Source: Pseudomonas sp. FP2196 (GTDB taxonomy: Bacteria; Pseudomonadota; Gammaproteobacteria; Pseudomonadales; Pseudomonadaceae). Taken from it: 64,000 bases of DNA. Shown piece after piece: positions 42,080 through 52,407 of this stretch. The stretch lies in the NCBI RefSeq assembly GCF_030687715.1, contig NZ_CP117445.1, positions 2,779,501 to 2,843,500 on the forward strand, read 5' to 3'. Below the pieces are notes generated by a model. The model saw only the letters and a list, made by a program, of their open reading frames with translations. It did not search any database and was not told the origin of the DNA. Numbering within the stretch: the first letter of the stretch is position 1; each line of letters starts with the position of its first letter. The position numbers and the translations under genes are program-made.

Positions 42080-42097
42080 ATGAAGCTTTTATGACAA
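42080..42097. promoter_or_regulatory. Degenerate Pho-box-like site upstream of phdA
   Basis: ATGAAGCTTTTATGACAA compares with the reverse Pho box (ATGACAG-N4-ATGACAG): 6/7 in one half and 4/7 in the other, with an AT-rich spacer, 104 bp before phdA. The related P. aeruginosa locus responds to low phosphate. Weak evidence from sequence alone. Confidence 0.3.
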
Positions 42098-42201
42098 AAG
42101 TTCGGTAGCACATCGCCAGTCCGGTCATGCCTATGTAACGCGCTTGAGGGGCCCAACGGGGCGCTTTTCACAAGCCGAGGCGGGACGCCGGGAGTGAGGC
42201 A

Positions 42202-42813
42202 ATGGGGACTATGGAACGCTACTCGAAAGTGGGCATGCAGGAACTCGATCAACGCCTGTCGAAGATCGTCGAAGCCGCGCGCAAGAAGCCGGTTTCGGTG
42301 TATCGCTACGGCGCGCCGTGGGTCTGGATTGTCTCGCAGGATGACTGGCAGGGCGCCTTGAAAGAGGTCTCCAGCTACATTCCGCCAGGTCATTCGCTGG
42401 TCTTGCTACGCCCGCAGATCGACGATTTGCTCGACGCCCATCGCGACCTTCTGCACGACCTCAATGCCGAGCCCGGCCGGCTGATCCCCGCGCAAACGGT
42501 CATGCACATCCTGCTCCTGCAACTGCTGTATTCGGTGCCCAGCGAGCAGCAGCTCTACGAACAGCTCAGTTACAACCTGTTGTTCCGCTGGTTCGTCGGT
42601 CTTGGCCTGCAACAGAAAGTCTGGAGCTTCAATGCCCTCAGTCGCGACATCGCCACGCTGCTCAACAACCCGCAGGCGGTGCAACTCATTCAAAAAATCA
42701 TCGGCGAAGTGTTCTGCGGTGCCTTGCTGCAAATGCCCGAGTTCTCCTTGAACTTCGCGCTGCTGCACACATGGCTCGCTAAACACGCAAGCGTTGCTAC
42801 AGCCAGCAATTGA
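42202..42813 (+). CDS. phdA: PhdA-like protein: Phd/YefM antitoxin domain fused to a transposase DUF772-like domain
   Basis: A 203-residue protein. Residues 4-50 (YSKVGMQELDQRLSKIVEAA, then 'VYRYGAPWVWIVSQDDW') are a Phd/YefM-type antitoxin N-domain. Residues about 100-150 contain LYEQLSYNLLFRWFVGLGL and 'VWSFNALSRDIATLL', the N-terminal DUF772 signature of IS5/IS1182 transposases, without any DDE catalytic domain. No Doc-type toxin gene is adjacent. Its position before pdtB-exbB-exbD matches P. aeruginosa phdA (PA0691), reported under BfmR control and protective against phage-mediated lysis in biofilms. Recognition is from memory; the DNA-binding role is inferred. Confidence 0.72.
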   Translation: MGTMERYSKVGMQELDQRLSKIVEAARKKPVSVYRYGAPWVWIVSQDDWQGALKEVSSYIPPGHSLVLLRPQIDDLLDAHRDLLHDLNAEPGRLIPAQTVMHILLLQLLYSVPSEQQLYEQLSYNLLFRWFVGLGLQQKVWSFNALSRDIATLLNNPQAVQLIQKIIGEVFCGALLQMPEFSLNFALLHTWLAKHASVATASN

Positions 42814-42868
42814 CGCAACACACAAGGTGCACGAGCGCCAACAGGTCAACGCGAATTCAGGGGGTAGT

Positions 42869-44467
42869 GTGGAACAGATTTTCACGTCACGGCTGGCGCT
42901 GTGGGGCTGGCTGCTGGTGACGGTCGGCGCGCAGCCGGCGTTGGCCGAAGAGGCCACCGAAACCGCCGCCGCGCAGCGTCTGGTCGACGTCAACGAATAC
43001 TTCGTGCGTGGCAATACCGTGCTCGATGCAAGGGCGATCGAAGAGGCGGTATACCCGTTTCTCGGCCCGCAAAAAGCCCTGAGCGATATCGAAGGTGCGC
43101 GCGACGCGTTGCAGAAGACCTATCAGGAGCGCGGCTATCAATCGGTGTTCGTCGAACTGCCAGAGCAAGCCGTGGCGGACGGCATCGTCTATCTGCAAGT
43201 CAGCGAAACCAAGGTCGGCCGCGTGCGTGTGGTCGGCGCCAAACACTATTCTCCGCTGGACATCCGCGACGACGTGCCGGCGCTGAAAGAAGGCGAGGTG
43301 CCGGACTTTGCGAAGGTTCAGGGCGAACTGGCGCAACTCAACAAAACCCCGGGCCGCCAGGTCATGCCGCTGGTTCGCGAAGGTCAGCGCCCCGGCACCA
43401 TGGACGTCGATTTGCAGGTCGAAGACCAGAACCCTTGGACGGCCAGCGTCGGCCTCAACAACGACTACAGCGCTGACACCGAAAAACTGCGGGCCGTCAC
43501 CAGCCTCGGCTACAACAACCTCTGGCAACTCGGCCACAGCATCTCGCTGACCTACTTCACTGCGCCGCAGGACACCGACAACGCCAAGGTCTGGTCCGGC
43601 TCGTATACCGCGCCGCTGACTGATCGCTGGAGCGTGCAGTTCTCCGGTTACCAGTCCGACAGCAACGTCGCCACCATCGGCGGCAGCAACGTGCTGGGCA
43701 AGGGCCATTCCTACGGCGTGTCGGCGATCTACACGCTGCCGTCCAGCGGCAGTTGGTCGAACTCGCTGTCAGCGGGTATCGACTTCAAAGACTTCGACGA
43801 GCGCCTGACGCTGTCCGGCGAGAGCGACAAGGTCCCGCTGCAATACGCGCCGTTCACCTTCGCCTACAACGGCTATCGCTACACCGAAAAGAGCCAGCTC
43901 GGCCTCGGCCTGAGCCTGGTCGCGGCCACCCGCAGCGTCTTCGGTTATGGCAGCTCCGACGAAGACTTCGACTACAAACGCTACCGCGCCAACCCGAGTT
44001 TCGCCGTACTCAAGGGCGACACCAGTTTCACCTGGACCTTCGCCAACGACTGGCAGAGCGCGAGCAAAGCGGCGTTCCAGCTGGCTTCGGGGCCGCTGGT
44101 TTCCAACGAGCAATTCTCCGCTGGCGGCGCGACCTCGGTGCGCGGCTATCTGGCCGCCGAGCGCACGGCGGATGACGGTTACCTGCTGAGCCAGGAACTG
44201 CGCACACCGTCGCTCGCCAAGTACACCGGCACCTGGATGCAGGATTGGCGCTTCTACGCCTTCGCCGAAGGCGCGCAACTGTACCTGCGCGACGAACTGC
44301 CGGATCAGGACGCCAATTACGCCCTGGCCAGTGTCGGCCTCGGCACCCGCGCCAGCCTGAGCAAATGGCTGTCCGGCAGCCTCGACTGGGGTTATCCGCT
44401 ACTCGAAGGGCCGAACACCTCGAAACAGGAATCGCGCCTGCACTTCAACCTTCAAGCCACTTTCTAA
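42869..44467 (+). CDS. pdtB: Two-partner secretion TpsB transporter (ShlB/FhaC/HecB family), PdtB-like
   Basis: About 532 residues: signal peptide (LWGWLLVTVGAQPALA), two POTRA domains (about 40-190; 'VNEYFVRGNTVLD', 'VRVVGAKHYSPLDIRDDV') and a 16-strand barrel with the conserved tip motif VRGY near 415 and an aromatic C-terminus (NLQATF). TpsB proteins move TpsA exoproteins across the outer membrane. No TpsA gene is present in this window, whereas P. aeruginosa has pdtA beside its homologue. The GTG at 42869 behind GGGGG is chosen; GTG 42827 or TTG 42794 are alternatives. Confidence 0.87.
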   Translation: MEQIFTSRLALWGWLLVTVGAQPALAEEATETAAAQRLVDVNEYFVRGNTVLDARAIEEAVYPFLGPQKALSDIEGARDALQKTYQERGYQSVFVELPEQAVADGIVYLQVSETKVGRVRVVGAKHYSPLDIRDDVPALKEGEVPDFAKVQGELAQLNKTPGRQVMPLVREGQRPGTMDVDLQVEDQNPWTASVGLNNDYSADTEKLRAVTSLGYNNLWQLGHSISLTYFTAPQDTDNAKVWSGSYTAPLTDRWSVQFSGYQSDSNVATIGGSNVLGKGHSYGVSAIYTLPSSGSWSNSLSAGIDFKDFDERLTLSGESDKVPLQYAPFTFAYNGYRYTEKSQLGLGLSLVAATRSVFGYGSSDEDFDYKRYRANPSFAVLKGDTSFTWTFANDWQSASKAAFQLASGPLVSNEQFSAGGATSVRGYLAAERTADDGYLLSQELRTPSLAKYTGTWMQDWRFYAFAEGAQLYLRDELPDQDANYALASVGLGTRASLSKWLSGSLDWGYPLLEGPNTSKQESRLHFNLQATF

Positions 44468-44479
44468 AGGAGCACGTAC

Positions 44480-46279
44480 ATGCAGCGCCTCTTCCTTTCG
44501 TTGTTGATCTGCCTGGGCTTCGTGCTCCCGGCCACGGCTCAGGCCTGGTGGCAGGACGACTGGCACTACCGCAAACAGATCGCCGTCGACACCACGCCGC
44601 AGGGCGCGGCGATCAATCAGGCGCTCGGCCGCACTGCGCTGCTGGTGCGCCTGCACACGGGCAATTTCACCTTCGATGGCGTTAAAGAGGACGGTTCGGA
44701 TCTGCGCTTTGTCGGCGCCGATGACAAGACCGTGCTCAACCACCAGATCGAAAGCTTCGATGCGCTGATGGGCATGGCGCTGATCTGGGTTGATGTGCCG
44801 AATGTCGAGGGTGGCCAGCGTCAGGACATCTGGATGTATTACGGCAACCAGAAGGCCCCGGCCACTGGCAACGGACAACTGACTTTCGATCCGAATTACA
44901 CCGCGCTCTATCACTTTGACGGCGCCACCGGCACCCCGGCCAAAGACACCACCGCCTACGGCAACACCGCGCAAAGTGCGACCGGTGCGGCGATTGACGG
45001 CGTAGTGGGGCGTGCCTTGCAGTTCAGCGGCCAGCCATTGCTGCTGCCTGCAAGCCCTTCGTTGCAACACAACGCCGGCAGCGCGTTTACCTTCAGTGCC
45101 TGGCTGCGCCTGGATCAGGCCAATGACGAGCAACTGATTCTGGCCCGCCGTGAAGGTGCCAACAGTCTGTTGGTCGGTGTGAATCAGGGCGTGCCGTTCG
45201 TGGAAATTGACGGCCAACGTGCAATCGCTACGCAACCACTGAATCCGGGTCAATGGCAGCACGTCGCGCTGACTGCCGAAGGCTCGAAAGTCACGCTGTA
45301 CATCAATGGCCGCGAAGGCACGACACTGGCGGTAGCGATGCCGGCGTTCAACTCGGTCATGGCTATCGGTGCTGATCTTTCCGCCAGCGCCTTGCAGCCA
45401 TTCGTGGGCGCTATCGACGAGCTGCGCCTGTCGAAAGTTGCGCGTCCTGCGCCGTTGTTGCTGGCCGACGCTACCTCGCAAGGCGCCGAGTCGAAACTGG
45501 TGGCCTACGGCGTTGATGAAGAACAGTCCGGTTACGGTTTCGGCAGCCTCGGATTCCTGCTCAATGCGGTGCCGGTCGACGCTTGGGTGATCATCGCTGT
45601 GTTGGTACTGATGATGTTCCAGTCGTGGATCATCATGCTGCGCAAAAACCGTACCCTCGGCCGCGTCAGCAAGGCCAACGAAGACTTCCGCGAGCAGTTT
45701 GCCAAGGTCGGCACGCGTCTGGAGATGTTTGCCGACGACGCGCAACTCGCTCAGCGTTTGCAGCATTCATCGCTGTGGCGCCTGTATCTGGTGGCGGTCA
45801 AAGAAATCCGTACCCGCCGCGAGCAGGGCGCCGACACCTCTTCGGTTTCCGCTGCAACCATCGAAGCGATCCGTTGCTCGATGGACGGCGTGCGCACCCG
45901 GGAAAACCAGGCCCTCAGCTCGAAACTCTCGACCCTGTCCAACGCCATCGCCGGCGGCCCTTACATCGGCCTGCTCGGTACTGTGCTGGGGATCATGGTG
46001 GTGTTCCTCGGCACGGCGATGGCCGGCGACGTCAACATCAATGCGATCGCCCCAGGTATGGCGGCGGCGTTGCTGGCCACCGCCATGGGGCTGTTTGTCG
46101 CGATCCCGGCGCTGTTTGGCTACAACCGCCTGATCACGCGCAACAAGGAAGTCAGCGCCGACATGCGCGTGTTCGTCGACGAGTTCATCACCCGTCTGGC
46201 CGAGATGCACGGCGAAAGCCAGTTCAGTGAGGCGTCGCACGCACGCGGCCATCACGCCAACCACTCCGTACCGGCCTGA
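44480..46279 (+). CDS. exbB: ExbB/TolQ proton-channel protein with DUF2341-LamG periplasmic domain
   Basis: A 599-residue protein, more than twice a normal ExbB. Signal peptide (about 1-22), DUF2341 (about 24-130, WQDDWHYRKQIAVD), LamG/concanavalin-like domain (about 135-325, 'FTFSAWLRLDQANDEQLILARREG'-type core and GQWQHVALTAEGSKVTLYINGR), then TM1 near 370-390 and the ExbB core with TM2/TM3 at about 490-550 (GGPYIGLLGTVLGIMVVF). The canonical core forms the proton channel that energises TonB; the ectodomain could bind peptidoglycan or saccharide. AAAGGAG precedes the ATG. It is cotranscribed with exbD and tonB. Confidence 0.9.
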   Translation: MQRLFLSLLICLGFVLPATAQAWWQDDWHYRKQIAVDTTPQGAAINQALGRTALLVRLHTGNFTFDGVKEDGSDLRFVGADDKTVLNHQIESFDALMGMALIWVDVPNVEGGQRQDIWMYYGNQKAPATGNGQLTFDPNYTALYHFDGATGTPAKDTTAYGNTAQSATGAAIDGVVGRALQFSGQPLLLPASPSLQHNAGSAFTFSAWLRLDQANDEQLILARREGANSLLVGVNQGVPFVEIDGQRAIATQPLNPGQWQHVALTAEGSKVTLYINGREGTTLAVAMPAFNSVMAIGADLSASALQPFVGAIDELRLSKVARPAPLLLADATSQGAESKLVAYGVDEEQSGYGFGSLGFLLNAVPVDAWVIIAVLVLMMFQSWIIMLRKNRTLGRVSKANEDFREQFAKVGTRLEMFADDAQLAQRLQHSSLWRLYLVAVKEIRTRREQGADTSSVSAATIEAIRCSMDGVRTRENQALSSKLSTLSNAIAGGPYIGLLGTVLGIMVVFLGTAMAGDVNINAIAPGMAAALLATAMGLFVAIPALFGYNRLITRNKEVSADMRVFVDEFITRLAEMHGESQFSEASHARGHHANHSVPA

Positions 46280-46290
46280 GGAACACTGAC

Positions 46291-46716
46291 ATGGCGTCCG
46301 TAAATGCCTCCCACGATGATGACGAAGATGCTGCGGTGGACAGCATCAACATCACCCCGCTGGTTGACGTGCTGATGGTGGTGCTGGTGATGTTCATCCT
46401 CACCGCCACCGCGCAGGTTTCCGGCATCCAGATCAATCTGCCCAAGGCCAGTGCTTCAGTGTCCTTGTCCGAAGCCAAGACCAAGGCAATTTCGGTCAAC
46501 GATGGCGGTCAGGTGTTCCTCGATGCCTACCCGGTGACGCTCGCCGAGCTGGAAGAACGCCTGCGCATCGAAAAGGCACAGAGCCCGGACTTCCCGGTGA
46601 TCGTGCGCGGTGACGCGACTGTGCAGTACCAGAAGGTCATCGAAGTGCTGGATCTGCTGCGCCGGCTCGAACTGTCCCAGGTCGGTCTTGTGACCGGCAA
46701 ACCGAGTCAGGGCTGA
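46291..46716 (+). CDS. exbD: Biopolymer transport protein ExbD
   Basis: A 141-residue single-pass protein. The membrane helix (about 22-42) contains NITPLVDVLMVVLVMF with the proton-carrying Asp. The periplasmic domain has the ExbD/TolR fold ('VNDGGQVFLDAYPVTLAEL'). It works with the upstream ExbB and the downstream TonB as an inner-membrane energy transducer. GAGGAA precedes the ATG. Confidence 0.93.
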   Translation: MASVNASHDDDEDAAVDSINITPLVDVLMVVLVMFILTATAQVSGIQINLPKASASVSLSEAKTKAISVNDGGQVFLDAYPVTLAELEERLRIEKAQSPDFPVIVRGDATVQYQKVIEVLDLLRRLELSQVGLVTGKPSQG

Positions 46717-46719
46717 GTC

Positions 46720-47424
46720 ATGACCGCACAACTCCCGATCGAGCCGCTCCCGGTGAAAAAGTCGCCGATGCGCTTTGTGAAGTGGGGCGCCGGGCTATTG
46801 GTCGGCGCGCTCGCCGCATGGTTCCTGTGGCAGTGGGCCAACGATATGAGTGGCATCCGCCGCGAAGCGCCAAAGGTGCCGACGATCATTCCGTTGCCGC
46901 CACCGCCACCACCGCCGCCAGAGAAACCACCCGAGCCGGAAACCCCGGTGGAAGAAAAAGTCGTCGAGCCCGAGCCGACGCCCGAGCCCGAAGAGGTCAA
47001 GCCTGAAGAAGAGGCGCCGCCATCGCCAGCGGACGATCTGGCCAACCCGATGCAAATGGACGGCGATGCACAGTCGGGCAACGACGCCTTCAACATCGGC
47101 GCGGGCAAGGGCGGCGGCATGGCCGGCGCCGGTGGCGGGCGCTTGGGTAACGGCACTTACAGCCAGTTCCTCGCGTTCACCTTTCAGAAGCTGCTGCGCG
47201 AGAACCCCGAGTTGCGCAACCTCGCTTTCACCTTGCAGGCCGATGTCTGGCTGAGCAGCGTCGGCGAGATCACCCGGGTCGAGCTGATCAAATCCAGCGG
47301 CAATCCCGAGATTGATACCCAGGTTTTGGCGGCGTTGCGTAACGCGCCGCACTTAAGCGAAAGGCCACCGGCCTCCATGACTTTGCCTGTGCGCCTGTCC
47401 CTGCAAGGGCGGCGTCCGGGTTAA
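46720..47424 (+). CDS. tonB: TonB-like energy transducer
   Basis: A 234-residue protein: short cytoplasmic tail, one membrane helix (about 22-42), a Pro/Glu-rich periplasmic spacer (IPLPPPPPPPPEKPPEP, then VEPEPTPEPEEVKPEEE), a Gly-rich stretch, and a C-terminal TonB/TolA-like domain (about 145-234; 'LSSVGEITRVELIKSSGNPEID'). It starts 4 bases after exbD. TonB domains normally contact the TonB box of outer-membrane receptors; no such receptor is seen in the operon, so the partner may be the TpsB or the porin, by inference. Confidence 0.9.
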   Translation: MTAQLPIEPLPVKKSPMRFVKWGAGLLVGALAAWFLWQWANDMSGIRREAPKVPTIIPLPPPPPPPPEKPPEPETPVEEKVVEPEPTPEPEEVKPEEEAPPSPADDLANPMQMDGDAQSGNDAFNIGAGKGGGMAGAGGGRLGNGTYSQFLAFTFQKLLRENPELRNLAFTLQADVWLSSVGEITRVELIKSSGNPEIDTQVLAALRNAPHLSERPPASMTLPVRLSLQGRRPG

Positions 47425-47463
47425 ACGAATTCTTAGAGTTTTGCCAAAAGGAGTTGTGTGCAG

Positions 47464-49161
47464 ATGATTTCCAACGTGAATCGATTGTCCCTGGCGGTCG
47501 GCATGGTCATCGCGACCCTGGTCGGACAGGCCGCAGCGGCGCCTGCGCCCTCGGAAAACGCCACGATCAATCTGATCCGCTTGCTGGTCGAGCAGGGCAT
47601 TCTGAAGCAGGACAAGGCCGACGCCCTGATCGCTCAGGCGCAGAACGAAGCGGCGCAGGCGAAACAGGCTGCCACCACCACGGCAGTGGCGGCAGGGCCT
47701 GTTGCCGCCCCGGGGGATGTGCGTGTGCAATACGTGCCGGCGGCGGTGCGCGACCAGATCCGCGATCAGGTCAAAGCCGAAGTCATGGCCACCGCCAAGC
47801 AGGAAAACTGGGCCGCGCCCAACACCTTCCCGGACTGGGCTTCGCGCATCAGCTTCGACGGCGACATTCGCCTGCGTGACGAATCGCGCTACTACTCGGA
47901 CAGCAACAGCAACGAGATCGTCGACTTCGCCAAGCTCAACAACAATGGCCCATACGACGTTAACCCGAACAGCAGCACCAACCTGCCGCCGCTGCTCAAC
48001 ACCCGCGAAGACCGCACCAATCAATTCCGCATTCGTGCTCGGCTGGGCATGAAAGCGGTGATCTCGCCGGAATGGACCGCCGGCATCCGCATCGGCACCG
48101 GCTCCGACAACAACCCGGTCTCGACCACGCAAAGCCTCGGCGGCGGTTTCGCCAAGAAAGACATCTGGCTCGATCAGGGTTACCTGAACTGGAAGCCGAC
48201 GGAAGACTTGACCCTCACCGGTGGCCGCTTCGCCAACCCGTTCATGTCCACCGACATGCTCTATTCCAATGACCTCAACTTCGACGGTGTGGCGGCGATC
48301 TTCGATCACAAGCTCAACCGTGATTGGGGCGTGTTCGGTACCGTTGGCGCGTTCCCGGTGGACTACACCAACGACACCTCCAGCAGTAATGGTTTCGACA
48401 AGGAAGAGAGCGACAACAAATGGCTGTACGGCGCGCAGATCGGCGCCAAATGGGCAATCAACAGCAACAACCGCTTGAAGGGCGCACTGGCTTATTACCG
48501 CTTCGACGACATCGAAGGCCAGCGCTCCGGCCCCTGCGAGCCGTGGGCCGGCGCACCGGGCTGCGACAGCGATGGCAGCCGCGCGGCGTTCATGCAGAAG
48601 GGCAACAGCGTGTTCCTGCTGCGCGACATCACGCCGAACCCGCTCAACCCGACCACCACGCCGCAACCGCAATTCGTCGGTCTGGCGTCCGAGTTCAACC
48701 TGCTCGACTTGAACATGGTCTGGGACGCCGATCTGCCGCAAGACTTCAAACTGCGCAGCCAGGGCAACTACATCCACAACCTCAGCTACGACGAAGGCGA
48801 CATGCGCAAGCGTTCGGCCGGGCAGATCGTCAACAACCTCGACAGCAATGGCGACATCGAAAGCGGCGCCAACGCGTGGATGGTCCAGTTCACCCTCGGC
48901 AACGCGCTGGACCTGAAGAGGCAGGGCGACTGGAATATGTTCGCCGGCTACAAATACATCCAGCCGGATGCCTTGCCGGACGGCTTCAACGACTCGTCGT
49001 TCCACCTCGGCGGCACCAATGCCAAGGGCTATTTCATCGGTGGCAATTACGGCTTGGCGAAGAACGTCTACGCCACCGGTCGCTGGATGAGCACCGAGGC
49101 GGTGTACGGCGCGCCGTTCGACATCGACGTCTTGCAGCTTGAGATCAACACGCGCTTCTAA
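47464..49161 (+). CDS. Putative outer-membrane porin with N-terminal coiled coil
   Basis: A 565-residue outer-membrane protein: signal peptide (SRLAVGMVIATLVGQAAAA-like region, cleavage after AAA), a periplasmic helical segment at about 28-72 (LIRLLVEQGILKQDKADALI, Ala/Gln-rich), and a long beta-barrel (from ~125: ISFDGDIRLRDESRYY) ending LEINTRF with the terminal Phe used for BAM-dependent assembly. The ATG at 47464 has AAAGGAG upstream; GTG 47458 is possible. It belongs to the DUF3373/putative-porin type. It lies in the TonB operon, suggesting a function with that complex. Confidence 0.87.
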   Translation: MISNVNRLSLAVGMVIATLVGQAAAAPAPSENATINLIRLLVEQGILKQDKADALIAQAQNEAAQAKQAATTTAVAAGPVAAPGDVRVQYVPAAVRDQIRDQVKAEVMATAKQENWAAPNTFPDWASRISFDGDIRLRDESRYYSDSNSNEIVDFAKLNNNGPYDVNPNSSTNLPPLLNTREDRTNQFRIRARLGMKAVISPEWTAGIRIGTGSDNNPVSTTQSLGGGFAKKDIWLDQGYLNWKPTEDLTLTGGRFANPFMSTDMLYSNDLNFDGVAAIFDHKLNRDWGVFGTVGAFPVDYTNDTSSSNGFDKEESDNKWLYGAQIGAKWAINSNNRLKGALAYYRFDDIEGQRSGPCEPWAGAPGCDSDGSRAAFMQKGNSVFLLRDITPNPLNPTTTPQPQFVGLASEFNLLDLNMVWDADLPQDFKLRSQGNYIHNLSYDEGDMRKRSAGQIVNNLDSNGDIESGANAWMVQFTLGNALDLKRQGDWNMFAGYKYIQPDALPDGFNDSSFHLGGTNAKGYFIGGNYGLAKNVYATGRWMSTEAVYGAPFDIDVLQLEINTRF

Positions 49162-49178
49162 GGCGCCGGAGAACGATC

Positions 49179-49808
49179 ATGCACGCACGAGTTTTACTGC
49201 TGGGGCTGAGTTTTTTCATTGCGCACGGAGCCAGCGCCGAAGGCATGGAAGAGCGCCTGCGCACTCAGTTGCGCAGCACCACCCAGCAGTTGCAGACCCT
49301 GCAAAGTCAGCAGGCGCAGGCCAGCGCCGCGCAACTGGCGGCGCAGAACGAGGCCAAGGCTGCGCAGGCGCAAATCAGGCAGTTGAGCGCCGAACTGGCC
49401 AAGGCCAAAGGCGTCGCCGAGCAACTCGCCGGGCAGCAGCAAAGCCTGCACAGCCAGGCCCAAGCGCAAGTTGCGGCCAGTAACGAGCAAACCGGCAAGT
49501 TCAAGAAGGCCTATGACGAGCTATTGGTCATGGCCCGTGCCAAAGAGACAGAACGGTCTAAGCTTCAAGCGCAATTGGCTGAACGTGACACACAAGTGCA
49601 GCAATGTTCAGTCAAGAATCAGCAGATGTACGGCGTCGCCAAACAGATCCTCACTGCCTACGAAAACATCGACGTGGCCGAGGTGATGAAGATCCGCCAG
49701 CCCTTCGCGGGCAGCGCCCGGGTCAAGTTCGATGAACTGGCCCAGGGGTTGGGTGACGAGCTCTACAAGACTCAATTCGACGCGCCGCAAGCCGCGCTCG
49801 CACACTGA
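49179..49808 (+). CDS. Periplasmic coiled-coil protein
   Basis: A 209-residue protein with a signal peptide (MHARVLLLGLSFFIAHGASA) followed by a long coiled coil (about 25-140, Gln/Ala-rich, e.g. LQTLQSQQAQASAAQLAAQN) and a small C-terminal domain (about 140-205, 'YGVAKQILTAYENIDVAEVMK'). The design resembles periplasmic adaptor or spacer proteins. No family is recognised. It is 18 bp after the porin and probably part of the same envelope machine. Confidence 0.75.
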   Translation: MHARVLLLGLSFFIAHGASAEGMEERLRTQLRSTTQQLQTLQSQQAQASAAQLAAQNEAKAAQAQIRQLSAELAKAKGVAEQLAGQQQSLHSQAQAQVAASNEQTGKFKKAYDELLVMARAKETERSKLQAQLAERDTQVQQCSVKNQQMYGVAKQILTAYENIDVAEVMKIRQPFAGSARVKFDELAQGLGDELYKTQFDAPQAALAH

Positions 49809-49825
49809 TAAACAAGGAAGAAGTA

Positions 49826-50296
49826 ATGACTCAATTGATCAGCCATGTTTCCCCGCAATCCCTGACCGACGTCCTGCAAGCGGCCGGTTATCGCGTCAAC
49901 CAGACCGAACAGAACGGCATCGTCCAATTGCTCAGCGCCAGCCAGGGCATCGGTTACGCCGTGCGCTTCGGCAACCCGGCGGCGGAGCAGGGTAGCTATG
50001 TCGATTTCACTTTCAGCTGTGCGCTGCGGGTGCAGGGTGAGTTGCCAGTCGGTGTGGCCGAGCAGTGGAACGCGACTCGACGTTTTGCCCGCTTGTCGTT
50101 GCAGGGCGAGTTTCTGGTGATGGAAATGGACGTGGTGCTGGCCGCCGGTGTCAGCAACGATCACTTGCGCGGCAATCTGGAATTGTGGGATCGCCTGTTG
50201 CAGGAGTTCATCGTTTACCTGCGTGACTTCAGTCAGGCTGCTCAAGCATCGGCTGCAAAAGTGGCCGTCGCCGAGCAAGAGGAAGTCGCCCTGTGA
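49826..50296 (+). CDS. YbjN-domain protein
   Basis: A 156-residue cytoplasmic protein of the YbjN/T3SS-chaperone-like fold. The family core is visible as AEQWNATRRFARLSLQGEFL, then MEMDVVLAAGVSNDHL, and a Gln/Ala-rich C-terminal tail. YbjN-type domains resemble secretion chaperones, which would fit an operon with a TpsB transporter, but no role is established. GGAAGAAG lies before the ATG, and the stop overlaps the next start by 4 bases (GTGA). Confidence 0.75.
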   Translation: MTQLISHVSPQSLTDVLQAAGYRVNQTEQNGIVQLLSASQGIGYAVRFGNPAAEQGSYVDFTFSCALRVQGELPVGVAEQWNATRRFARLSLQGEFLVMEMDVVLAAGVSNDHLRGNLELWDRLLQEFIVYLRDFSQAAQASAAKVAVAEQEEVAL

Positions 50297-51240
50297 AAAA
50301 GCCTGCCATGGTGATCGGCGCCGGAGCAGTGGCGCTGTTGGTGGTGGCCGTGGCGCTGGTGGTGCGACCGGGCAGTGACCCGGTCGCCGCCCAGCAATCG
50401 TCGCCGGTGTCGGCGACTGCCACGGGGCCGGCGGTGGCGCGGTTGGGTAATCAGCAGGTGTCGCCGCAGGAATTGCAGACATTGCTGGCCACTGTCCCGC
50501 CTGAAACCCGTGAACAACTGCGCGGCAATCGTGAAGCGCTGGAACGCTGGATTCGTGCGCGTCTGGCCGAGAAAGCGGTGCTGGAACAGGCCGATGCCCA
50601 GGGTTGGGCGCAGCGGCCAGACGTCGCGCGACAGACCCGCGCGGCGACTGAACAGATCGTCTTTCGCGATTATTTGCGTTCGGTCAGCGAAGTGCCGGCG
50701 GATTACCCGAGTACGGCCGATTTGCAGAAAGCCTATGACGCGGGCAAGGCGAACTGGCAGACCCCGGCTTTGTATCGGGTCAGCCAGATTTTCCTTGGGG
50801 TTAACGATCCGCAGAACCTTGAAGCCGTACGCAAGCAGGCAGTGGATTTGAGCAAAAAGGCGCAGGCCACACCGGGGGACTTTGCCGCACTGGCGAGCCA
50901 GTATTCGCAGGATCGTGTGACTGCCGAGCGCGGCGGCGATACCGGTCTGCAACCTTTGCAGCAACTGGTACCGGAAGTGCGCGGTGCGGTGGCGCGACTG
51001 AAGGTTGGTGCGATTTCCGATCCGGTGCAAAGCGCGGCCGGGTTTCATGTGATCAAACTCACGGAGCAGCAACCGGCGCGTACCGCGACCCTGGACGAAC
51101 TGCGCGATCAACTGACTCAGGCGTTACGCGCCCAGCGTCAGGAACAGATTGCCCAGGCGTATCTGGACGGGATGCTCAATACCGCAACGCTGAGTATCGA
51201 TGGGGCGGAACTCAATAAAGTCCTTGAGGAAGAACACTGA
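50293..51240 (+). CDS. Membrane-anchored parvulin-type peptidyl-prolyl isomerase (PpiC/SurA-like)
   Basis: A 315-residue protein with an uncleaved-type N-terminal membrane anchor (about 4-24), a SurA-like helical N-domain (about 50-150) and a parvulin domain at about 155-260 ('YRVSQIFLGVNDPQNLEAV', 'GDFAALASQYSQD', GFHVIKLTE). Such periplasmic foldases assist outer-membrane or secreted proteins; here the barrel of PdtB, the porin or an unseen TpsA would be clients. The GTG start overlaps the YbjN stop, so it is translationally coupled. Confidence 0.88.
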   Translation: MKKPAMVIGAGAVALLVVAVALVVRPGSDPVAAQQSSPVSATATGPAVARLGNQQVSPQELQTLLATVPPETREQLRGNREALERWIRARLAEKAVLEQADAQGWAQRPDVARQTRAATEQIVFRDYLRSVSEVPADYPSTADLQKAYDAGKANWQTPALYRVSQIFLGVNDPQNLEAVRKQAVDLSKKAQATPGDFAALASQYSQDRVTAERGGDTGLQPLQQLVPEVRGAVARLKVGAISDPVQSAAGFHVIKLTEQQPARTATLDELRDQLTQALRAQRQEQIAQAYLDGMLNTATLSIDGAELNKVLEEEH

Positions 51241-51261
51241 TTGTTTATCCCATACAAAACC

Positions 51262-51351
51262 TGTGGGAGCTGGCTTGCCAGCGATGGCGGAGTGTCAGTC
51301 ACCGGTGATGTTGGATGTACCTGCCTCATCGCTGGCAAGCCAGCTCCCACA
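51262..51351. repeat. REP palindrome (GTGGGAGCTGGC family)
   Basis: A 25-bp perfect inverted repeat: arms at 51262-51286 and 51327-51351, core GAGCTGGCTTGCCAGCGATG. It follows the operon's last gene and may protect or terminate the transcript. Confidence 0.9.
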
Positions 51352-51426
51352 AGGTTTTCATTGGGTTCAGACATTTTTCACAGTGCTGAAAGCCAATAAA
51401 ATACAAAGATCGACAGGGAGTCATCG

Positions 51427-52407
51427 ATGTCATTCACCGAACCCGCAGGACGACAGGGCAGCGCCGAATTTCGCTGGGCGCAGGACGAGAGTGAACCCTG
51501 GCTGGCGCAAGCCGCGATGATCGACACCGAAATCGCTCAATACTTTCTGGTCAGCGCCCGCTGCGGTTGCTTTATGCAAGCGGCGCGCAGCCTTAACGTT
51601 CGATCAACCCTGCTGCGCAAACAACTGGCGCAACTTGAGCAGGAACTCCAGCATTCGCTGTTCAGCTTTCAGGGCAGCGCCTTGAGCCTGACCCGCGAAG
51701 GCCAGCAATTGCAGGCGAAACTGGTCGCACTGGCCAATGAGCGCAAACTGCCGGTGGTCGAACAACCGCTGATTCGTCTGGCGGTTGCCGAATCGATCCT
51801 TCACGACATCCTCGGCCGCGACCTGATTGCGCTGCTGCGGCGCAACGCCAGCGTGCGTCTGGAAATCATCGCCCTGGACAGCGAATTGTCTCTGCGTGCA
51901 GTCAGTGCCGACGTCGTCCTCTGGCTGGCCCACGGCGAGACGCCGCTTCCAGGTCCGACCTTCGCCACCAACCCACCGCAGCCCCTGGCGAATCTTCACT
52001 ACTTGCCGCACATCGCCAAACGCTACTCCCGCGTCACCGCGCGTCCGGACAGCCCCGAAGATCTTGCGGATTTCATGCTGGTGCAATGGCAACACGACCG
52101 GCAGATCGACAGCTTCCGCCCGTGGAACGAACTGGTCGAGCAACGTCTGGCGGGCGTAGTGCAGATGCAATCCTACGAACTGATGCTGGAGATGATCCGG
52201 TGCAGTGCGTGCATCGGTTTGCTGCCGGCGTACATGAGCCGCTACGACCGTGGGCTGGTAGCGTTGCCGGGGTTGTTCAACGAACCGATGCAACTGACAG
52301 CGTGGCTGGCAGTGAATGCCGATTCGCAAGACATCGTTGAAGTGCAAACCCTGGTCGAACTCATCCACCATACCTTCAACGAGCGCCACGAGTGGTTTCA
52401 GGATTGA
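51427..52407 (+). CDS. LysR-type regulator beside the TonB/TpsB operon
   Basis: A 326-residue LTTR with an extra ~30 residues before the HTH. The winged helix at about 32-95 is atypical: 'SARCGCFMQAARSLNVRSTLLRKQLAQLEQELQHSLF' keeps the spacing but has several substitutions. The effector domain (about 115-320) is recognisable. GGGAG precedes the ATG at 51427. The position at the end of the pdt-like locus matches PA0701 in P. aeruginosa (from memory), so it may regulate that operon. Confidence 0.8.
   Translation: MSFTEPAGRQGSAEFRWAQDESEPWLAQAAMIDTEIAQYFLVSARCGCFMQAARSLNVRSTLLRKQLAQLEQELQHSLFSFQGSALSLTREGQQLQAKLVALANERKLPVVEQPLIRLAVAESILHDILGRDLIALLRRNASVRLEIIALDSELSLRAVSADVVLWLAHGETPLPGPTFATNPPQPLANLHYLPHIAKRYSRVTARPDSPEDLADFMLVQWQHDRQIDSFRPWNELVEQRLAGVVQMQSYELMLEMIRCSACIGLLPAYMSRYDRGLVALPGLFNEPMQLTAWLAVNADSQDIVEVQTLVELIHHTFNERHEWFQD

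Follow-up and report, generated by a model that had tools for sequence, protein, structure and literature searches.

Organization of the pdtB operon

The DNA analysed was a window of 64,000 nucleotides, meaning the whole stretch examined, from Pseudomonas sp. FP2196 (positions 2779501–2843500 of its 6.24-Mb single-contig genome). It holds an operon that encodes PdtB, an outer-membrane transporter (TpsB) of the two-partner secretion (TPS) type, together with its own ExbB–ExbD–TonB motor, whereas the secreted partner (TpsA) of this transporter is most likely PdtA, a giant protein encoded 670 kb away.

All genes of the operon are open and run head to tail on the + strand. The first one (42202–42813) is a phdA-like counterpart of PA0691 of Pseudomonas aeruginosa, whose product combines a DUF772 transposase-type domain with a weak Phd/YefM match that falls below its cut-off. 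It is followed by pdtB (42794–44467), encoding POTRA_2 and ShlB domains and including the sequence SVRGY, for which the TTG start given in the list of open reading frames is doubtful, the true start being probably near 42869. The motor is encoded by exbB2 (44480–46279), exbD2 (46291–46716; ExbD family) and tonB4 (46720–47424), the product of the latter having a transmembrane segment, a proline-rich linker and a TonB C-terminal domain. In ExbB2, a MotA/TolQ/ExbB proton channel is fused behind a signal-peptide-like start, a DUF2341 domain and a laminin-G-like domain, in this order. Downstream lie genes for a Porin_5 outer-membrane porin (47458–49161; PA0696 counterpart; Pfam E value 3.9e-207), a coiled-coil protein with a signal-peptide-like start and no Pfam family (49179–49808; PA0697 counterpart) and, each identified by a Pfam family match, a YbjN-family protein (49826–50296), a PpiC-type parvulin foldase (50293–51240) and a LysR-type regulator (51427–52407; PA0701 counterpart). 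From pdtB to ppiC the spacing ranges from a 4-bp overlap up to 33 bp, and a gap of 186 bp separates ppiC from lysR.

The coordinates and family matches thus agreed with the families and gene order named in an earlier note on this DNA, made from its letters alone, although that note had missed the phdA-like first gene, the terminal LysR gene and the fusion of ExbB to DUF2341 and the laminin-G-like domain. The same order is found in the PdtA/PdtB system of P. aeruginosa (PA0690–PA0701; PUMA3/VreI regulon), in which phdA, pdtB, exbB2D2, tonB4 and PA0696–PA0701 are described as one transcript (PMC4971064; PMC7035377; PMC2729926), and PdtB is 72–74% identical to P. aeruginosa entries over 93–97% of its length. 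When 80 named loci, all from Pseudomonas and retained from 172 found, were compared, exbB2, exbD2 and tonB4 were present in 80/80, the porin, coiled-coil and YbjN genes in 79/80, ppiC in 78/80, lysR in 77/80 and phdA in 75/80, some of these misses being due to truncated loci.

A putative cargo gene elsewhere in the genome

As no match to the TPS domain (PF05860) was found inside the window, the earlier note had described PdtB as a transporter without a TpsA substrate and had proposed that its cargo could be encoded elsewhere. The genome-wide search for TpsA proteins that it had suggested revealed three TPS-domain proteins, all outside the window, and four POTRA_2 transporters. Two of the TpsAs (frames of 2853 and 1533 aa) adjoin their own TpsBs. 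The third, PdtA, is encoded by a 4193-residue frame with a TPS domain and a C-terminal DUF3739 domain (G000:C1, about 3493560–3506138, minus strand), and it is the only TPS-domain protein of the genome without an adjacent TpsB. Because the other TpsAs and TpsBs are accounted for by their own neighbours, PdtB and the DUF3739 protein are left as a pair, and PdtA is most likely the cargo that PdtB would secrete.

The surroundings of the unlinked pdtA resemble those described for P. aeruginosa, where vreAIR lies near pdtA and pdtA follows the hxc genes of a type II secretion system (T2SS) (PMC2729926; PMC7035377). Upstream of pdtA there are genes for a PBP_like_2 protein and for T2SS components F, E, D and G, and about 35 kb from it a vreAIR-like cluster (L195:13757–16025) encodes an STN plus TonB_2 protein, an extracytoplasmic function (ECF) sigma factor and a FecR protein in the order vreA–vreI–vreR. 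In contrast to P. aeruginosa, pdtA is not a neighbour of pdtB here. The first part of the earlier description was not supported, whereas the proposal of a distant cargo was strongly supported by this lone TpsA and by its co-inheritance and promoter, described below.

Co-inheritance of cargo, exporter and motor

In a sample of 149 genomes of the same genus, DUF3739, PdtB (at least 70% identity) and DUF2341 were each detected in 48 genomes, and these were the identical 48. PdtB matches of 31–32% identity, in two other genomes and, once, as a second copy, belong to different TpsBs, each with a small TpsA of its own beside it. DUF2341 starts 226–273 bp from the PdtB match in 48/48 carriers. The position of the cargo gene was variable: in 13 of the 48 carriers DUF3739 and PdtB were on different contigs, making the distance undecidable, and among the 35 with both on one contig, 16 had them within 20 kb (0.6–7.8 kb between the matches) and 19 at 36 kb or more. 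The earlier note had regarded a tpsA gene always co-inherited next door in close relatives as evidence against its view; relatives do present this case, such a neighbour being seen in those 16 of the 35 decidable carriers and the two genes being apart in the other 19, so that the comparison of synteny across Pseudomonas that it had proposed yielded loci both with and without a nearby pdtA. Likewise, pdtA was seen in 25 of the 80 named loci, for which up to 10 kb were fetched upstream.

Separation was the rule among the closest relatives, as PdtB of at least 87% identity to that of the window was found in 19 genomes (its own included) and 14 of the 14 decidable cases had the genes at least 120 kb apart. 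The split was also detected in G102, G104, G110 and G061, and more than one origin of it is probable. Since in more distant genomes cargo and exporter share a contig, although their order differs, the split locus is probably the derived state. Separate locations are not without precedent, as Llamas et al. (2009) describe PUMA3 clusters associated with tps, exbBD and PA0696 homologues, with the tpsA of Rhodopseudomonas and Janthinobacterium at other PUMA3 clusters than tpsB.

A similar association was detected in a sample of 299 genomes of the phylum, in which DUF3739 was present in nine, DUF2341 in eight and PdtB-profile matches with E<1e-100 in eight, the three being common to the same eight genomes, of which two belong to the same genus and six do not (Fisher p of 6e-15 for DUF3739 vs. 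DUF2341). Five further genomes gave weaker PdtB-profile matches (3e-75 to 1e-21) and had neither DUF. The stretches fetched from the six distant genomes contained ExbB, ExbD, TonB and Porin_5 in 6/6, the coiled-coil protein in 3/6, YbjN in 2/6, the parvulin in 1/6 and PhdA in 0/6. As the former members occur in all six and the others in fewer, the core of the system consists of the DUF3739 TpsA, PdtB, DUF2341-ExbB, ExbD, TonB and Porin_5. In one of these genomes (G412), the ExbBD–TonB genes are on another contig than pdtB and the porin gene, so the motor is retained even when unlinked.

Two genomes of the phylum sample deserve a separate description. G345 (contigs C105 and C124; locus L154 holds one of the matches) has three DUF3739 matches for one PdtB, which suggests that a single motor-linked exporter serves several cargos; over the region searched, its protein shows 100% identity to an entry of Bradyrhizobium sp. 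CSA112. G428, the ninth genome with DUF3739, encodes a pair of such TpsAs, with frames of 4121 and 4572 aa (contigs C24 and C32, loci L162 and L163), one stopping 0.3 kb and the other 3.1 kb short of a contig end, and DUF2341 was not found in this genome.

A promoter element shared by both halves

An element of the form ATGAA-N7-TGACA-N3-GTTCGGT is located upstream of phdA (42080–42106, + strand) and the same element precedes the unlinked pdtA. It was derived by eye from a comparison of these two upstream regions, and since the pattern was built from its own two sites, the other genomes constitute the independent test. With up to two mismatches allowed, only these two sites were found in the whole genome, and a reversed-pattern control gave zero sites in the same search. 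The element was present on the correct strand before both genes in 48/48 carriers, 105–890 bp before the PdtB match and 11.5–12.1 kb before DUF3739, whether pdtA and pdtB were linked or not. It was also found 101–835 bp before the PdtB match in 79 of the 80 named loci, the one without it being L046. Among the non-carriers, 25/101 had some match, none of them exact and one with a single mismatch.

In reverse reading the element corresponds to a pho box, with two repeats of 7 bp at a distance of 11 bp and, behind them, the −35-like GTTCGGT; a GTC- or GCC-type block about 16 bp beyond the latter is, by eye, a candidate for the −10 region. An E. coli-type pho box consensus scored 10/14 at both promoters, but 34 such sites were found in the window, so that this consensus alone would not have counted. 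The spacing of the element fits the mutational map of the pdtA promoter of P. aeruginosa, which puts the −35 region at −30 to −34 and the pho repeats near −40 to −45 and −50 to −56 (PMC4971064). As in that species, where pdtA-pdtB is described as a functional TPS system under PhoB/VreI control, a pho box and a conserved −35 block thus precede both genes; here each of the two distant halves has its own copy, and these putative promoter elements may be the targets of PhoB and of a VreI-type sigma factor.

Features of the motor, PdtB and PdtA

The transmembrane Asp of ExbD and two channel Thr positions of ExbB, chosen after E. coli ExbBD, were invariant in 87/87 loci and, because of this, the proton channel looks functional. 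Separately, ExbB2 (44480–46279) and its counterparts have Ala in 87/87 loci at the position that corresponds to Glu176 of E. coli ExbB. The ExbB part scored 154.7 bits against TolQ and 77.9 bits against ExbB. None of ExbB, ExbD, TonB or Porin_5 was found in seven control loci with other TpsBs, whereas they were detected in two positive-control loci searched alongside. In the genomes examined, the DUF2341-ExbB protein was confined to those with the DUF3739 cargo and PdtB, and this three-way co-inheritance suggests that the motor serves both. The earlier note had called the system TonB-energised; this found support at the genomic level, and the motor may act on export.

In a structure search with a medium-confidence model of PdtB (mean predicted local distance difference test, pLDDT, 71; predicted template modelling score, pTM, 0.62), the top PDB matches were 6wim, 4ql0 and 4qky, which have the CdiB/FhaC fold, so the model confirmed the predicted TpsB fold. 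The H1 plug helix is an N-terminal feature of FhaC that not all TpsB members have. In ten PdtB orthologues, about 5–20 residues lie between the signal peptide and POTRA (by eye), leaving little or no room for H1. The absence of this helix was considered as a reason for a TonB motor or for gating and rejected: it is not diagnostic, because four motor-free TpsBs (those of G115, G022 and G438 and the second copy in G139) also lack H1 and the distant PdtBs of G412, G399 and G345 have longer stretches, of about 22–35 low-complexity residues, at the same place.

Along PdtA, conservation is highest in the TPS domain and near DUF3739, the middle being much less conserved than the ends. Behind DUF3739, the tail contains a motif P-S-[VI]-[IF]-x-V-[EQR]-V-L-[GS]-[YF]-G (in short PSVIxVEVLGYG). 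It was counted in 147 tails, from 120 proteins of a database search, 18 of the 25 named loci with pdtA and nine others; the 120 are the best of 1335 in a search scored on a region including the tail, which favours retained tails. A first count with a stricter anchor and pattern gave 37/148. For the recount, the anchor was dropped, one row was removed (G345, the same protein as P0241) and the pattern was loosened after inspection of the misses; the resulting 145/147, with two near variants as the misses, is consequently a fitted count. The motif ends 33–72 residues before the C-terminus in 141/145, and in G167 it is almost at the very end of the protein. As controls, the loosened pattern was found in 1/1656 windows elsewhere in the same proteins and in 23/7350 shuffled tails, and in 0/5 proteins from motor-free loci (four TpsAs and a collagen-like protein). 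In a model of the C-terminal 500 residues of a PdtA (that of locus L097; pLDDT 66), strands and helices are followed by values below 50 from residue 399, so that the tail is modelled as disordered, although such low values fit a thin alignment (18 rows) as well.

A TonB box has the form [ST]-[VIL]-x-V. The strand-like tail motif resembles it and could be a candidate docking site for TonB, although docking of a strand to PdtB, to the laminin-G-like domain or to the porin would explain the motif equally well. That the cargo carries its own TonB box, so that TonB4, driven by DUF2341-ExbB/ExbD, would grip the tail in the periplasm and then either draw the final part of the chain through PdtB or keep the giant fibre on the surface, is a tentative idea that we consider rather unlikely; if true, it would amount to a proton-powered, cargo-coupled form of TPS. 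The motif nevertheless appears to be a new clue to the DUF3739 TpsAs, a domain for which no paper was found by name in the literature searched.

Possible role of the motor

The above results suggest that the operon provides the exporter and the motor of a PdtA/PdtB system whose cargo is encoded 670 kb away, both halves being switched on together by PhoB and VreI and the motor acting on export or surface anchoring, a reading to which we give a probability of about two-thirds. With cargo, exporter and motor co-inherited, the system is a motor-linked form of TPS with its locus split in this lineage. Under phosphate starvation, PhoB and the VreI-type ECF sigma factor would induce both halves; PdtA would then cross the inner membrane, kept unfolded with the help of the parvulin and the coiled-coil proteins, and be threaded through PdtB, while the DUF2341-ExbB/ExbD channel and TonB4, with the co-inherited porin, would be a dedicated motor for its export or anchoring. 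The motor may act on PdtA or on PdtB, and it may gate the transporter, drive the chain or anchor the product; the roles of the porin, the foldase and the coiled-coil protein are likewise presumed.

This system shares with the classical ones (FhaC/FhaB, CdiB/CdiA) a TPS-domain cargo and a transporter with POTRA, barrel and the CdiB/FhaC fold, but differs in the co-inherited ExbBD–TonB motor and Porin_5 and, in the Pseudomonas members, in the scarce room for H1. With the Ton (ExbB–ExbD–TonB) and Tol (TolQ–TolR–TolA) motors it shares the proton channel, the ExbD Asp and the TonB C-terminal domain, whereas the DUF2341 and laminin-G-like domains on ExbB and the lack of a TonB-dependent receptor in the operon set it apart. 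The GldLM motor of type 9 secretion would be a precedent for proton-driven protein export across the outer membrane, with a translocon and cargo unrelated to PdtB and PdtA.

Several observations weigh against this interpretation. The 48 carriers are related and hence not independent cases, and the test across the phylum depends on a small number of positive genomes. Of the nine genomes with DUF3739, G428 alone shows no POTRA_2 transporter. The four motor-free TpsBs without H1 have been described above, and we infer, rather than observe, both the need of the motor for PdtA secretion and its driving of export. Finally, a P. aeruginosa mutant in the tonB homologue was as virulent in zebrafish as the wild type (PMC2729926), a result that does not decide the matter because the tpsA and tpsB mutants were equally virulent in that report.

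Other explanations were considered for the association between exporter and motor. In an uptake pathway like HxuCBA, where a TpsB, a surface TpsA and TonB take part in haem acquisition (PMC5422565), PdtB would display PdtA to capture a phosphorus-containing ligand and the TonB motor would drive its entry via the Porin_5 channel. The pho-box-type promoter and the presence of porin and TonB in one operon, with Porin_5 in all six distant genomes, would fit such a role; however, Pfam gave no match to a TonB-dependent receptor plug family for any of the ten operon proteins, which therefore include no HxuC-type receptor, and the poorly conserved middle of PdtA agrees better with a signal for export or anchoring than with a fixed binding site. 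A further difference from HxuCBA is that the motor is encoded with the exporter. The import role that the earlier note had left as an alternative is unlikely. Neither is it probable, to a similar or slightly lesser degree, that the motor stabilizes the outer membrane during export of the giant protein in the manner of TolQRA and is co-inherited for that reason, without acting on PdtB or PdtA: the closer match of the ExbB part to TolQ and a laminin-G-like domain that could bind glycan speak for it, but the loci of the other two TpsAs of this genome, with frames of 2853 and 1533 aa, have no such module. That PdtB is a true orphan in this lineage or serves one of those two TpsAs would agree with a window devoid of tpsA, but it is very improbable given that both adjoin their own TpsBs and that the DUF3739 TpsA and PdtB coincide in 48/48 carriers. 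Overall, the interpretation of the earlier note was partly supported, for the distant cargo and not for the missing substrate or for import.

If the motor does act on export or anchoring of PdtA, a system of a kind that, according to a 2017 review of type V secretion, requires no source of energy at the outer membrane would have one. The data point to a TPS branch, represented in 48 genomes of the Pseudomonas group and in six from farther away in the phylum, with a proton-channel/TonB motor and a porin tied to a single class of cargo, and they raise the idea of energized secretion from a curiosity of one locus to a phylum-wide association; with cargo, exporter and motor inherited together, the energy question of TPS becomes testable. 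Among the matches listed, no title or abstract reporting a test of TonB-dependent TPS was found, most subscription journals being outside the search. The association also provides a functional context for DUF3739, for the fusion of DUF2341 to ExbB, which a 2025 paper lists among domains of unknown function (PMC12505986), and for a TonB system called still uncharacterized in a 2020 paper (PMC7035377), and it indicates that the lack of a TpsA next to a TpsB can be due to nothing more than a split locus.

As an additional observation, the fourth TpsB of this genome (560 aa; L013:8822–12284, at about 0.76 Mb) has no TPS-domain partner nearby and adjoins a 552-aa Collagen_mid protein, and it is possibly a TpsB with an unusual cargo.

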